Assembly (NCBI RefSeq): GCF_002287235.1
Contig: NZ_LMVP01000090.1
Location: 1 to 46,438, forward strand
From: Methanosarcina spelaei
GTDB taxonomy: Archaea > Halobacteriota > Methanosarcinia > Methanosarcinales > Methanosarcinaceae
Reading direction: 5' to 3'
DNA: 46,438 nucleotides
Shown: piece by piece, positions 12,356 to 33,587 of the stretch
How the letters are laid out: each line of letters begins with the position of its first letter
Position numbering within the stretch: position 1 is the stretch's first letter
Program-made: the position numbers and the translations under genes
The notes under the pieces: model-generated
What the model saw: only the letters and a program-made list of their open reading frames with translations
The model's database searches: none
Told to the model about the DNA's origin: nothing

Positions 12356-14299
12356 ATGGCAGATCGAAATAATCCAGAATTTTTGTCATCAAGCACAATA
12401 AAAGGAGATAAGATTGTCAATGAATCTGGGGATGACCTTGGAAAGATTGAAGAATTAATGATTGATCTTCGTGACGGAAGGCTAGCGTATGTCGTAATGT
12501 CTTTTGGAGGATTCCTGGGCCTGGGCGATAAATTGTTTGCTATTCCCTGGCAAGCATTTAGATTAAAACTTCATGATCATGCCTTCATCCTTGATATTCC
12601 CAAGGACGTTCTGGAAAAAGCAGAAGGCTTTGACAAAGACAACTGGCCTATAACCTCCCGTGAGTGGGTTTCCACCGTATACAGCTATTATGGATACCAG
12701 CCTTACTGGCAGCTAAGAGTACCTGAAGAAGTCGAATCACAAAGGATGGCCAGGACAAGAGGCACATCTTCAGAGAGGGAAAATCCAGATTTCTTGTCCG
12801 CAGACACGCTAAAAGGGGATAAAGTTGTCGATAAATCTGGAAAGGATACCGGGAAGATTGAAGAGTTTATGATTGATCTTCAGGATGGAAAAGTAGGGTA
12901 CGTTGTAGTCTCACATGGTGGATTTCTGGGTATAGGCAATAAATTGTTTGCTCTTCCCTGGGAGGCTCTTTCACTTAGACTGCATGAGCATGCTTTCGCT
13001 CTCAATGTGTCTAATGAGACTTTCGACAAAGCAGAGGGCTTTGGCAAGGACAACTGGCCTTTAACTCGTGAGGAGCTCTCCAGAACCTACAGCTACTATG
13101 GGTATCAACCTTACTGGCAGATAGGAGTGGCAACACAGGCAGCAGGAGTTTCGGCAGCAATGCCAGTTGAAGGCGAACCTGAAAGGATGGCCAGAATGGA
13201 AAGAGAAGGACAGGTGCCACTGGTAGGAGCAGAAGAAGAGAGAAAGACGCAGCAAGAAAGAGAAAGGCTTGAAGAGTTAAGGAGAACACAGGAAGAAAAA
13301 ATTTCCCAGCTAGAAAAACAGCAGATGAAAGCCCAGAAACAGGTAGATGCCGAAAGGGAAAGGTTGATGCGTCTGGAAAAAGAGCGGATTGAGGCTGAGA
13401 GGCAGGCACAGGCTGAGAAACAAAGGTTAGCACAATTGGAAAAAGAGCTACAGGAAGCAAGAAGACAGGAAAAAATGGAAGCAGTAGCCCGTCTTGAAGA
13501 AGAGTTGAGGTCAGTACAGGTACAGGAGGGAACCCGTCGAGATAGACTGGCTCAACTGGAAAGGGAGTGTACAGAAGCCCAGAGACAGGCCGAGACCGAG
13601 AGACAGAGACTGGCACAGCTGGAAAGAGAACGTACTGAAGTAGAAAGTCAGGCCGAGACCGAGAGACAGAGACTGGCACAGCTGGAGAGAGAGCGGGTAG
13701 AAGCTGAGACTCTGACCCAGACGAGAGTTATGGCAGGTAGAGAAATGCCTGACTTTTTATCAGCAAGTACGATAAAAACGGATAGAGTTGTCAATGCTGC
13801 TGGAGAAGACCTTGGAAGGATCGAAGAACTAATCATTGACCTGGAAAATGGTAAAATAGCATATGCAGTGCTTTCCTTTGGCGGATTCCTGGGCATGGCC
13901 GACAAATTCTTTGCAATTCCCTGGCAGGCTTTTACATTGAGGCCGCATGAGCATGCCTTCTTACTTGATATTCCCAGGGATGTCCTGGAAAAGGCAGAAG
14001 GCTTTGACAAGGACAACTGGCCTTTAACTCGTGAGGAGCTCTCCAGAACCTACACCTATTATGGATACCAGCCTTACTGGCAGACAGGCGTAGCTACAGG
14101 AATGCCTAGAGAAACCCAGCCACAGAGGACAACTCGTACTCAAAGTGAAAGACCCCTGGGAACAGCAGAAGAATTAATAGCACGGCAGGAAAAAGAACGG
14201 ATAGAAAAGCTGGAAAAGACAGAAACCGATGAAGGGAGACTTGAGCAGTTGGAAAGAGATAAAGAGATAGCAGAAAGGCGGGAACGCAAATATCACTAA
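12356..14299 (+). CDS. Three PRC barrels with long coiled coil
   Basis: A 647-residue protein. PRC barrels lie at about residues 5-90, 141-226 and 462-547. Between the second and third, residues about 280-458 are a highly charged coiled coil built on repeats such as LAQLERERTEAERQAETERQ, encoded by near-identical DNA units around 13560-13690. A second charged helix ends the protein (about 575-647). The second barrel and the linker before it are almost identical in DNA to the first gene of the cluster (RMARTRGTSSERENPDFLSAD), pointing to recent duplication or conversion. It may scaffold the smaller PRC proteins. No catalytic motif is visible. ATG 12356 has GGGAG upstream, as in the paralogues. 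Confidence 0.85.
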   Translation: MADRNNPEFLSSSTIKGDKIVNESGDDLGKIEELMIDLRDGRLAYVVMSFGGFLGLGDKLFAIPWQAFRLKLHDHAFILDIPKDVLEKAEGFDKDNWPITSREWVSTVYSYYGYQPYWQLRVPEEVESQRMARTRGTSSERENPDFLSADTLKGDKVVDKSGKDTGKIEEFMIDLQDGKVGYVVVSHGGFLGIGNKLFALPWEALSLRLHEHAFALNVSNETFDKAEGFGKDNWPLTREELSRTYSYYGYQPYWQIGVATQAAGVSAAMPVEGEPERMARMEREGQVPLVGAEEERKTQQERERLEELRRTQEEKISQLEKQQMKAQKQVDAERERLMRLEKERIEAERQAQAEKQRLAQLEKELQEARRQEKMEAVARLEEELRSVQVQEGTRRDRLAQLERECTEAQRQAETERQRLAQLERERTEVESQAETERQRLAQLERERVEAETLTQTRVMAGREMPDFLSASTIKTDRVVNAAGEDLGRIEELIIDLENGKIAYAVLSFGGFLGMADKFFAIPWQAFTLRPHEHAFLLDIPRDVLEKAEGFDKDNWPLTREELSRTYTYYGYQPYWQTGVATGMPRETQPQRTTRTQSERPLGTAEELIARQEKERIEKLEKTETDEGRLEQLERDKEIAERRERKYH

Positions 14300-26268: not shown

Positions 26269-26308
26269 TTATATATACTATAAAATAGGAAATAGGTTAC
26301 TGTATTCC
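26269..26308 (+). promoter_or_regulatory. Promoter/operator block of anfH
   Basis: A TATA-like TTATATATA (26269-26277) is followed by a 30-bp segment (26279-26308) containing ATAGGAAATAGGTTACTGT and ending TTCC. The same segment, 29 of 30 bases identical, precedes the nifI1-I2-anfDGK operon at 33548-33577 on the other strand. The direct repeat ATAGGAAATAGG and the GGAA-N13-TTCC pair are candidate regulator contacts. If the TATA box is used, the block overlaps the transcription start, which fits repression. The leader to anfH is about 190 nt. Confidence 0.7.
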
Positions 26309-26484
26309 GTAAATATAAATCATGTTATGCTCTGTTGAACATAACACATTTGAAGCAAATACAGGAGGTATGGAACTGAAGTAAGCTATACAGAAGAATT
26401 TCGTTGCCTGTTAGAAACTCAATAGTTGCTTAAAATCGAATGCTGAAGAAAGTGAATTTTGATACGGTTGTAATAAATCTTTGA

Positions 26485-27321
<837 letters not shown>

Positions 27322-29001: not shown

Positions 29002-30390
29002 TTACCATACATTCAATATCCACTCCCTATCCTTTTTGTATTCCATATCGGTGAAAAGTGTGTTTGCCATCTGTTCAGCGAGCCATATAGCGCCTTCATA
29101 TCCAACAACTGGATGGCGGTACAATCCTGCACGATCGAAAGTAGGAAAACCCACACGTACCATAGGGATATTGTTGTCAATAGCAGTCCAGCGACCCTTG
29201 GAATGCCCCAGGATAAGATCAAGTTTAATTTCCTTATCCTTGATCCTCCTTTCAAGTTCCCACAGATCTGCATTCATAACAATTTCCATATCAAAATCTA
29301 CTTTTTCCTGGAATGCTTTGATGCGCGGATCGCCCTTATACGTGTTATTGTCATCGCCAAGAAGAAGAAGCACGGGTTTCATCTCCATATCGAGACAGAA
29401 TTCAGCAAGGCCTATGACTAGGTCTGGGTTTCCGTAAATGGCAACCCTCTTGTCGGCAAAAAACATGTGGGTAAGGTCCGTAATTGCATCGATTGCAATT
29501 CCCCTCTCACGAACAAGTGATTCGGGAATCGGTTTTCCGGTCATTTTTTTCAAATTCTGCAGGAAGGTATCCGTATTACGGATTCCGATCGGAGTTGGTC
29601 CTATTATTGCAGGAACATCGAACTCGCTTTCTAGATATCGAGCGGCTTTCGCACCCTCATACTTATTCAATGCAATTGTTCCCATTGCGTCCGCAGTTCC
29701 GGTCAGATCTTCTATCGTCGTACTGCCATGGGCAAATCCACTTTTATCCGGCATCAAAGGAGAATCAAAGCTTTCGATTTCGAAGAGGACTGTTGCATCT
29801 ATATCCATTGCTGACAGAAGGTGCTTGAGTGCTGTAACATCTCCGGGATTGACCCATCCGGTGATTAGATTGATTTTTCCATTAGGTTTATCTTTTTTTG
29901 CAAACGCCTTTACTATATCATGGACTGCCACATCATATCCGGTCACCATACTTCCTTTAAAACTTGGAGTGTGGATTGGAATAAGGTGTACTTCCCGATC
30001 TGCATATTTTTCTTTCAAAAGCTTTTTGTTTAGTTTCCGAATGAGACCGTCAATATCATCGCCGATGACTTCCGTCGAGCACGTCGTGATGATCGGTACG
30101 ACCTTCACATGTGGATACCTCATCAAAAGAACATCTACAGCCTCCTCTACTCTATTAAGAGCCCCAAACACCGCACCGTCCTCGTGAAGAGATGAAGATG
30201 CAAGCTCGAAGCTATCCTTGAAATGCTGTGCGAATAGCATACGAACGAACATTACGCATCCCTGTCCCCCATGAACGATAGCGATACAGTCCTTTATTCC
30301 TATACTGGCATATTGTGCTCCACAGGGTTGGCATGTGAATATGGGGTTGATAATTCCTGGACGCTCTCGTTGTTTTAGTTCACAAGACAT
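29002..30390 (-). CDS. anfK: Fe-only nitrogenase beta subunit AnfK
   Basis: A 462-residue nitrogenase FeFe-protein beta chain. It begins MSCELKQRERPGIINPIFTCQPCGAQ. Cys20, Cys45 (GGQGCVMF) and Cys104 (ITTCSTEVIGDD) are the three expected P-cluster ligands. It pairs with AnfD and AnfG to form the catalytic hexamer. It is the last gene of nifI1-nifI2-anfD-anfG-anfK, 15 bp after anfG, with AGAGGAAA before ATG 30390. The length matches the Anf/Vnf group (about 460 residues) and is shorter than NifK (over 510), which supports the alternative-nitrogenase call. Confidence 0.95.
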   Translation of the reverse strand: MSCELKQRERPGIINPIFTCQPCGAQYASIGIKDCIAIVHGGQGCVMFVRMLFAQHFKDSFELASSSLHEDGAVFGALNRVEEAVDVLLMRYPHVKVVPIITTCSTEVIGDDIDGLIRKLNKKLLKEKYADREVHLIPIHTPSFKGSMVTGYDVAVHDIVKAFAKKDKPNGKINLITGWVNPGDVTALKHLLSAMDIDATVLFEIESFDSPLMPDKSGFAHGSTTIEDLTGTADAMGTIALNKYEGAKAARYLESEFDVPAIIGPTPIGIRNTDTFLQNLKKMTGKPIPESLVRERGIAIDAITDLTHMFFADKRVAIYGNPDLVIGLAEFCLDMEMKPVLLLLGDDNNTYKGDPRIKAFQEKVDFDMEIVMNADLWELERRIKDKEIKLDLILGHSKGRWTAIDNNIPMVRVGFPTFDRAGLYRHPVVGYEGAIWLAEQMANTLFTDMEYKKDREWILNVW

Positions 30391-30405: not shown

Positions 30406-30756
30406 TTAATAAATTGGGTTAGTGAGTTCTTGATTAAGTGACCCATTGATAGTTAAGTAATCTATACGCCCCTTAAGCCCCTGCATAAGCAGTTTGATAT
30501 CTTTTTTGTCCATTATGCCTAACCATGGGCACGTTTTTTTGAACCCATTTGCTAAATACACAGCATCTACCCAATAGCACCTATCTGAAGGTGTGCTGAG
30601 ATTAACAGGTTCGTCGCACAATAACTGCATGGTTTTTGTAAGAATCTCTTCGTTTTGTCTCTCTCTGTCCCAGGCACGTGAGTGAAACTGCCACAGGCAC
30701 CATTTCATAATAAAATCTGCAAGCTGCTCTACCCTGTCTTTCATAACATCATCCAT
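30406..30756 (-). CDS. anfG: Fe-only nitrogenase delta subunit AnfG
   Basis: A 116-residue delta subunit, present only in V- and Fe-only nitrogenases. The family core [26 protein letters not shown] is quoted here in part as [27 protein letters not shown] and [14 protein letters not shown] follow. ATG 30756 is preceded by GGTGAGG at good spacing; a GTG at 30768 would add four residues. It is shorter at the N-terminus than the roughly 130-residue Azotobacter protein. It sits 21 bp after anfD and 15 bp before anfK, and its presence rules out a Mo-type NifDK cluster. Confidence 0.95.
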
Positions 30757-30777
30757 TAATGACCTCACCTTCCTCTA

Positions 30778-32364
<1,587 letters not shown>

Positions 32365-32742
32365 TTATAGAAGGGCACTGTCTCCCTGTTCATCCGTTCT
32401 TACCCTAATGGCATCATCAACAGGACAGATGAAAATTCTCCCATCGCCGATTTCACCAGTTTGGTTTACCTTAATAATTGTTTCAACAATTGTGTCAACA
32501 TCTTCATTACGGGAAACTATGGAAAATAGGCGCTTGGGAATGTATTCCATTCTCCTTCCAGCCTTTATGCTCTGATCCAGAATTTCAGGGCGAATATCAA
32601 TTTCAAGCTCGGTTGCAATGCCTTTTTGTTTACCTCTTCCAAACACTGGAAGCGCAGTTAAACTAGGAACACCGAGCTTCTCGAGAGCTTCTTTTGTAGG
32701 AATAACTTTTTTTGGACGGATAATTGCAATTATTTCTTTCAT
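32365..32742 (-). CDS. nifI2: PII-like nitrogenase regulator NifI2
   Basis: A 125-residue GlnB/PII-family protein. MKEIIAIIRPKKV opens the fold and VFGRGKQKGIATELEI marks the T-loop side. The T-loop is longer than in NifI1, as expected for NifI2. It ends GRIFICPVDDAIRVRT. With NifI1 it binds the nitrogenase protein and switches activity off when fixed nitrogen is available, sensing 2-oxoglutarate and ATP; this is known from methanococci. It lies 13 bp after nifI1 and 21 bp before anfD. AGGAGGGTG precedes ATG 32742. Confidence 0.93.
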   Translation of the reverse strand: MKEIIAIIRPKKVIPTKEALEKLGVPSLTALPVFGRGKQKGIATELEIDIRPEILDQSIKAGRRMEYIPKRLFSIVSRNEDVDTIVETIIKVNQTGEIGDGRIFICPVDDAIRVRTDEQGDSALL

Positions 32743-32755
32743 AATTGCACCCTCC

Positions 32756-33073
32756 TCAAAGACCTACATCCCCTGTGCGTATCGTATATGCATTGTCAAC
32801 GGGGATGACAAAAATTTTACCGTCTCCTTGATGACCGGTGTATGCTTTGTATTTGATAATTTTAGCAACTTCTTCAACATGCTCATCTTTTACAACTAAA
32901 ATAAGCATGGTTTTAGGAAGCTCATCATAGTGTACTGTTCCGATCGTGATCCCATTTTGTTTTCCACGGCCGAATACGTCTATTTTTGTTAGTGAAACAA
33001 ATCCCCCTTCTGCAAGCCCTTCTATAACGTCATCAGCGGCTTCAGTACGTATTAAAGCTTTGATCATTTTCAT
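32756..33073 (-). CDS. nifI1: PII-like nitrogenase regulator NifI1
   Basis: A 105-residue PII-family protein: MKMIKALIRTEAADDVIEGL, FGRGKQNGITIG, and GDGKIFVIPVDNAYTIRTGD at the end. It is the partner of NifI2 in post-translational shut-off of nitrogenase. ATG 33073 has GGAGG six bases upstream; a TTG at 33100 that would extend the frame lies upstream of that site and is rejected. It is now the first intact gene of the operon, about 475 nt from the promoter block, an unusually long leader that contains a nifH-family remnant. Confidence 0.93.
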   Translation of the reverse strand: MKMIKALIRTEAADDVIEGLAEGGFVSLTKIDVFGRGKQNGITIGTVHYDELPKTMLILVVKDEHVEEVAKIIKYKAYTGHQGDGKIFVIPVDNAYTIRTGDVGL

Positions 33074-33210
33074 ATTAATCCTCCTTTCACCGCCGAACAA
33101 ACTTTGTCACACGAAACATCATTCGGCGGCAAATGAAGTTTTGTGGTGTACAATGAAGTTTTATGTTTTCTAGTGAATGAAATTGCATTCGTGAGGTTTT
33201 GCAATGACAT

Positions 33211-33430
33211 TTAAGTGATCAATCCTTGACCAGATCTTGTGATTACTTTTTCTACGTAATTCATATCAAGAGGCTTTGTGGCAACAAAAGTTTCTTTTCG
33301 ATAATTTCAAGTGCAAGCTTGTCTCTTCCTTTTTTTTGATTACACAGATTATCATAATCAACAAAAAGATCGGACTTTATTTCTGCAACGTTTTTTTCCG
33401 GCATATAGCGAGTTGTCCGAATTTTAATAG
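33211..33430 (-). pseudogene. Frameshifted C-terminal remnant of a nifH-family gene
   Basis: In the operon leader, the minus strand from about 33430 reads TRYMPEKNVAEI, then FVDYDNLCNQKKGRDKLALE. After a one-base shift near 33285 it reads ETFVATKPLDMNYVEKVI and ends at TAA 33211. This lines up along its length with the AnfH C-terminus: [46 protein letters not shown]. The N-terminal three quarters, including the P-loop and cluster cysteines, are gone. The segment from ATG 33404 to the stop is 194 bp, one base short of 65 codons. Confidence 0.7.
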
Positions 33431-33440
33431 TCTTTCAGTG

Positions 33441-33505
33441 TGTTTTTAACCTTTTTTTGCGCTTTTAACCTCCTTTTGTGCTTTTAACCTCCTTTTGTGC
33501 TTTTA
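33441..33505. repeat. 19-bp tandem repeat, 2.5 exact copies plus a decayed one
   Basis: GCTTTTAACCTCCTTTTGT occurs twice in full at 33461-33498, with partial copies on either side, between the nifH-family remnant and the operon promoter. Confidence 0.9.
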
Positions 33506-33547: not shown

Positions 33548-33587
33548 GGAAAACAGTAACCTATTTCCTATTTTATACTATATAAAA
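33548..33587 (-). promoter_or_regulatory. Promoter/operator block of nifI1-nifI2-anfDGK
   Basis: On the minus strand a TATA-like TTTTATATA is followed by the 30-bp block shared with anfH, containing ATAGGAAATAGGTTACTGT and ending TTCC. Conservation extends through the TATA region and falls off quickly outside. See the anfH copy at 26269-26308. Confidence 0.7.

Follow-up and report, generated by a model that had tools for sequence, protein, structure and literature searches.

The vnf and anf operons of Methanosarcinales have been reported to all share the core organisation of the nif operon (PMC9765008). Nearly all of the anf loci that were fetched from Bacillota are ordered H-I1-I2-D-G-K; the exceptions were L074, in which the search used gave no match to H or nifI, and the fragmentary locus L080. 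A GTDB scan with AnfG returned just two Methanosarcina loci and one contig binned as Planctomycetota, the remainder being bacteria. This contig (L081, accession JAUPKS010000251.1) carries a Methanosarcina-like anf operon, with anfH at 95% and anfD at 90% identity, and its Planctomycetota label is probably a binning error.

Here we analysed contig C90 (46,438 nt; from here: the window) of the Methanosarcina assembly G000, which is 5.09 Mb in size. Its Fe-only nitrogenase operon, nifI1-nifI2-anfD-anfG-anfK, extends on the minus strand from 33100 to 29002 (Table 1). In the leader ahead of nifI1, at 33211–33416 on the same strand, we found a relic of ~68 residues, with one frameshift, that corresponds to the C-terminus of a nitrogenase reductase of the AnfH/VnfH type. 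With a probability of roughly 0.9, this segment is a pseudogene fragment consisting of the last ~70 codons of an H gene that once headed the operon in the order anfH-nifI1-nifI2-anfD-anfG-anfK. It is thus a genuine gene fossil and an object of an ordinary kind, not a new kind of element. The open-licence literature searched contained no report of either the relic or the separate anfH.

Table 1 Features of the anf locus, in coordinates of the window
Feature	Position	Strand	Remarks
Operator-like block GGAAATAGGTTACTGTATTCC ahead of separate anfH	26288..26308	+	same as operon block
Intact separate anfH	26494..27321	+	convergent with operon; NCBIfam nifH 459.7 bits
anfK	29002..30390	-	Pfam Oxidored_nitro
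anfG	30406..30768	-	
anfD	30778..32343	-	Pfam Oxidored_nitro; orthologues in relatives
nifI2	32365..32742	-	Pfam P-II
nifI1	32756..33100	-	Pfam P-II; ATG probably at 33073; first gene of the operon that is still intact
Old H-nifI1 intergenic spacer	33074..33210	-	alignable with spacer behind intact anfH of G002 and G018
Relic, 3' end of anfH/vnfH-type reductase gene	33211..33416	-	residues ~205-275; shared with G004 and G005
Relic frame B, ETFVATKPLDMNYVEKV..., ETFVATKPLDMNYVEKVITRSGQGLIT	33214..33293 (approximate)	-	non-self genome matches only VnfH and AnfH 27241-27309, collinear with frame A
Relic frame A, MPEKNV...EIIEK, MPEKNVAEIKSDLFVDYDNLCNQKKGRDKLALEIIEK	33294..33404	-	sole non-self genome match AnfH 27151-27240
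19-bp repeat, 3.5 tandem copies, contains AAAGGAGGTTAAAA	33439..33505	-	single copy in G004 and G005
Imperfect palindrome TTATGGTT..AACATAA	33510..33530	-	follows block in alternative-nitrogenase promoters
Operator-like block GGAAATAGGTTACTGTTTTCC of anf operon promoter	33548..33568	-	just downstream of TATA-like stretch

The relic is read in two frames that are separated by a one-base shift. Searched singly against the whole genome in six frames, they matched, besides themselves, only AnfH and VnfH. Each match was weak on its own (E 0.28–0.86); what counts is their collinearity, the AnfH segments hit by the two frames being exactly adjacent. When joined, the frames showed 40% identity over 62 aa to AnfH residues ~208–275 (tblastn against the window, E 4e-10). 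Local alignment scores against AnfH/VnfH were 89–121, compared with a mean of ~28 and a maximum of 71 for shuffled sequences (z about 14–21), whereas Mo-NifH reached only 49–67. The tblastn identities were 33–43% to AnfH/VnfH and 27–30% to Mo-NifH, and the relic is thus clearly like the former rather than the latter. The comparison with NifH-family profiles that had been proposed with the original prediction gave modest support: the NCBIfam nifH profile matched (E 0.0011, profile positions 216–268 of 275), but Pfam Fer4_NifH gave a weak hit below its cut-off (E 0.072, 13 bits), which is not decisive alone.

Recognisable homology extends from about 33416 to 33211. Approximately 75% of the gene, including the first ~205 codons, is missing, and with it the P-loop and the two 4Fe-4S cysteines of a functional reductase, which are absent from the leader. 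The other lesions are one frameshift near 33294 and one in-frame loss of 9 nt. DNA similarity to intact H genes is low because third codon positions match only at chance level, i.e. they are saturated; the link between the relic and H therefore rests on similarity at the protein level, position and synteny. Low profile scores and low DNA similarity would also suit a chance resemblance picked out by eye. This can hardly be entertained in view of the independent collinear matches and their distance from the shuffled scores, and it is refuted by positional homology, since the segment lies exactly where relatives carry an intact anfH.

Among the 31 genomes of the genus screened, 6 have an anf operon. 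In G002 (Methanosarcina sp. ERenArc_MAG2) and G018 (bog_70) an intact anfH, 95% and 91% identical, respectively, directly precedes nifI1, and L081 likewise has an intact anfH ahead of nifI1. Over its 3' part, the spacer at 33074–33210 is 82–83% identical to the spacer behind the intact H genes, and the distance from the end of the relic to the nifI1 ATG (33073) is 138 bp, compared with an anfH-nifI1 gap of about 137 bp in G002. The relic together with its frameshift is common to G000, G004 and G005. G001, which we take to be M. acetivorans C2A, has neither H nor relic between promoter and nifI1, a clean loss. In the operon tree the four H-less genomes G000, G001, G004 and G005 form one clade (100/100), with the H-bearing genomes outside. 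A separate anfH, convergent with the operon and beside the same pyridoxamine-oxidase-like gene, is present in G000, G001 and G004, and a wreck of it remains in G005. This distribution would be explained if the separate copy was gained once and the operon copy lost once. No genome with both an intact operon H and a separate anfH was found, and hence the order of gain and loss is one that we infer.

These findings bear out most of what had been proposed from the letters alone. The original prediction described a minus-strand segment with one frameshift that aligns with the AnfH C-terminus, and strand, coordinates and frameshift are as described; the leader of about 475 bp that it placed between promoter and nifI1 measures 475 bp from the operator-like block (33548–33568) to the ATG. 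It held that an H gene once stood there, as the intact genes at the same position in G002 and G018 confirm, and that the operon H was deleted and decayed, leaving the intact anfH at 26494 and, in the leader, a fossil of the order H-I1-I2-D-G-K. Relatives with the same leader and no H gene, which it had regarded as counter-evidence, do exist but all belong to one clade while H is present outside, and so they do not refute the loss. The direction of this change in gene order in alternative nitrogenase operons is thereby fixed: the operon once had H at its head and lost it, as opposed to never having had it.

The relic is no longer coding. Pairwise differences between G000, G004 and G005 are spread evenly over the three codon positions (3/6/6, 8/10/7 and 9/8/6), and there are additional frame-breaking indels, namely a −1 in G004 and the loss of the 3' end in G005. 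Identities of 92% and 82% are similar to those at four-fold sites of the neighbouring genes (0.79–0.94 and 0.73–0.81). The same data bear on a functional leader, in which nifI1 is controlled by an RNA element or by a short ORF that is translated. It would accord with the position of the relic in the 5' leader of the operon and with the conservation of its spacer and promoter portions, but no reading frame is common to the three species, G005 lacks the ATG, the changes are even across codon positions at a rate like that of four-fold sites, and the stretch is wholly absent from G001. Moreover, searches with Rfam covariance models gave no credible match to a leader-RNA family, only two sub-threshold matches, both outside the leader. 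We therefore consider such a function very improbable; in these species, part of the long leader ahead of nifI1 is gene debris and not regulatory sequence. Upstream of the relic, the 19-bp leader unit at 33439–33505 carries a GGAGG motif; as it is single-copy in G004 and G005, its repetition is a recent local expansion in the window.

Older divergence followed a different pattern. Compared with intact AnfH/VnfH genes, the relic matches at 52/70/31% of first, second and third codon positions, a contrast to be read with the caveat that both the gap and the point at which the two frames are joined were chosen in favour of the protein match. Intact AnfH/VnfH C-termini compared across species show about 0.92–0.98, 0.92–1.0 and 0.61–0.92, respectively. 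Neutral decay from intact genes was simulated at four depths, 1,500 times each, and the difference between second and third positions never reached the observed 0.40. The pattern lies outside simulated neutral decay, and the operon copy therefore diverged while it was still coding. If the relic were no more than the present anfH in a second copy, once disabled and drifting neutrally ever since, the position, the synteny, the AnfH-like residues and the neutral drift of the relic today would be accounted for. This reading is distinctly unlikely given the codon pattern, and a true neutral relic, the separate anfH of G005, still matches at 0.88/0.88/0.68 over 40 codons. Regarding origin, the original prediction was thus right about a decayed operon H, but the relic is too divergent, and its pattern too coding-like, to have arisen by neutral decay from a copy of the present anfH.

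The saturated third positions and the protein identity of just 40%, in contrast to 79% between the AnfH proteins of Methanosarcina and Desulfosporosinus, could alternatively indicate a fossil from a separate, divergent reductase lineage, an old paralogue or a horizontally acquired H, which had replaced the operon anfH. We judge this unlikely: 238 genomes of the class and the fetched loci yielded no living H that matched the relic clearly better than ordinary AnfH/VnfH, and the retention of 16 of the 35 positions that are invariant in intact AnfH/VnfH looks like relaxed decay and not like a working lineage. The simplest reading of the pseudogene fragment is that the operon H was a redundant copy, drifted for a time with weaker constraint on its protein, and was broken only afterwards.

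The separate anfH is strongly constrained, as its protein is identical in G000 and G004 despite 15% third-position change. It had been suggested that the move of H to this site separates the control of reductase and catalytic subunits. The promoter sequences do not support that suggestion, since the separate anfH carries the operator-like promoter block of the operon: the block GGAAATAGGNNACTGNNTTCC and a following palindrome TTATGTTT-n-AAACATAA stand ahead of both the operon and the separate anfH. Block and palindrome also precede the vnfH of M. acetivorans and, in more degenerate form, the vnfH of other genomes. In Methanosarcina, the block GGAAATAGGNNAC(T/C)GNNTTCC recurs ahead of alternative-nitrogenase genes and, in the form GGNNACCG..TTCC, ahead of lipoprotein genes resembling ABC substrate-binding proteins (ITDMLGRQLTVP...); the sites noted are 26288–26308 and 33548–33568 of the window, together with G000:C527:40433 and G000:C539:17559. 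The Mo-nifH promoter contains GGTTACCGGCTTCC. The recurrent block looks like a nitrogen- or molybdenum-responsive operator. The leaders of alternative-nitrogenase H genes, from block to start codon, are roughly 180–290 nt long (window 26309–26493; vnfH of L002, L045 and L040–L042), unlike the very short Mo-nifH leader.

Phylogenetically, vnfH is a nearer relative of the working anfH than is the anfH that G002 and G018 carry in the operon. The H gene tree places the separate anfH of G000 and G004 with vnfH from the same species group (95/96), and the G001 copy with the vnfH of that genome. Forcing the separate anfH copies together was rejected (p 1.5e-5) and forcing those of G000 and G004 with the operon anfH genes was disfavoured (p 0.017). 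In G001 the separate AnfH and VnfH proteins (L034, 3520–4344 and 12359–13183) are identical and the genes share 94% of third positions, pointing to a recent gene conversion or duplication. The grouping with vnfH together with the shared synteny therefore suggests that the separate anfH has undergone gene conversion with vnfH or may derive from it, or that the reductase was replaced.

In G005 the separate anfH is also dead (L033, about 13923–14165, minus strand); it has frameshifts, about 65 codons are left and the remainder is lost. The genes anfD, anfG and anfK are full length in this genome, and the intact vnfH is the sole AnfH-type reductase gene left. If active, the Fe-only enzyme of G005 would have to use VnfH or NifH. 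A second reductase relic in the assembly of the window (G000:C14:3859-4197, L005) is a 114-codon, N-terminal, Mo-NifH-like ORF with the damaged P-loop RKGKIGIST; similar fragments occur in G003, G004 and G005.

We propose the following course of events. As the shared synteny shows, the common ancestor of G000, G001, G004 and G005 acquired an H gene, equipped with a promoter and leader of its own, downstream of anfK in convergent orientation, probably in a single event. The operon copy then presumably became redundant and, as its codon pattern supports, drifted under relaxed yet coding-level constraint. The shared lesion places the frameshift and the large 5' deletion before the split of G000, G004 and G005, and in G001 the operon H vanished completely. 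The relic now evolves evenly at all codon positions as a passive part of the nifI1 leader, while the separate anfH serves the catalytic genes and, with the same operator-like block in its promoter, is probably co-regulated with them. More broadly, the findings point to reductase exchange between V and Fe-only nitrogenases. It is a tentative idea, to which we give somewhat less than even odds, that the alternative nitrogenases of Methanosarcina exchange reductases in such a way that the anf H diverged and died after a vnfH-type cassette had taken over beside the operon, that this cassette and vnfH were homogenised separately in each lineage, and that its loss in G005 left the Fe-only nitrogenase dependent on VnfH. 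Whether VnfH can serve AnfDGK on its own is a question for which G005 provides a natural test. The interest of the relic lies in the reductase turnover that it reveals, and is moderate for nitrogenase evolution.

Compared with known systems, the locus resembles the anfH-headed anf operons of other Methanosarcina and of Bacillota such as Desulfosporosinus, Pelosinus and Propionispira in the position ahead of nifI1 and in the downstream gene order, and with those of Methanosarcina the spacer is alignable as well. Unlike them, it keeps only the last ~70 codons of H, frameshifted and altered at more than half of the invariant residues. The dead separate anfH of G005 is, like the relic, a decayed AnfH-type reductase gene beside the same operon, but its promoter and leader persist along with about 65 N-terminal codons, its DNA identity is still 78% and it died more recently. 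The truncated Mo-nifH relic differs from the leader relic in being N-terminal and Mo-NifH-like, with an altered P-loop and at another locus. Within the group, the vnfH of the vanadium nitrogenase operon and the separate anfH are 91–93% identical and have the same promoter architecture, but vnfH differs from the relic in being intact and inside its own operon. The core organisation reported as common to the nif, vnf and anf operons of Methanosarcinales (PMC9765008) hence does not extend to H in the anf operon of the clade formed by G000, G001, G004 and G005.
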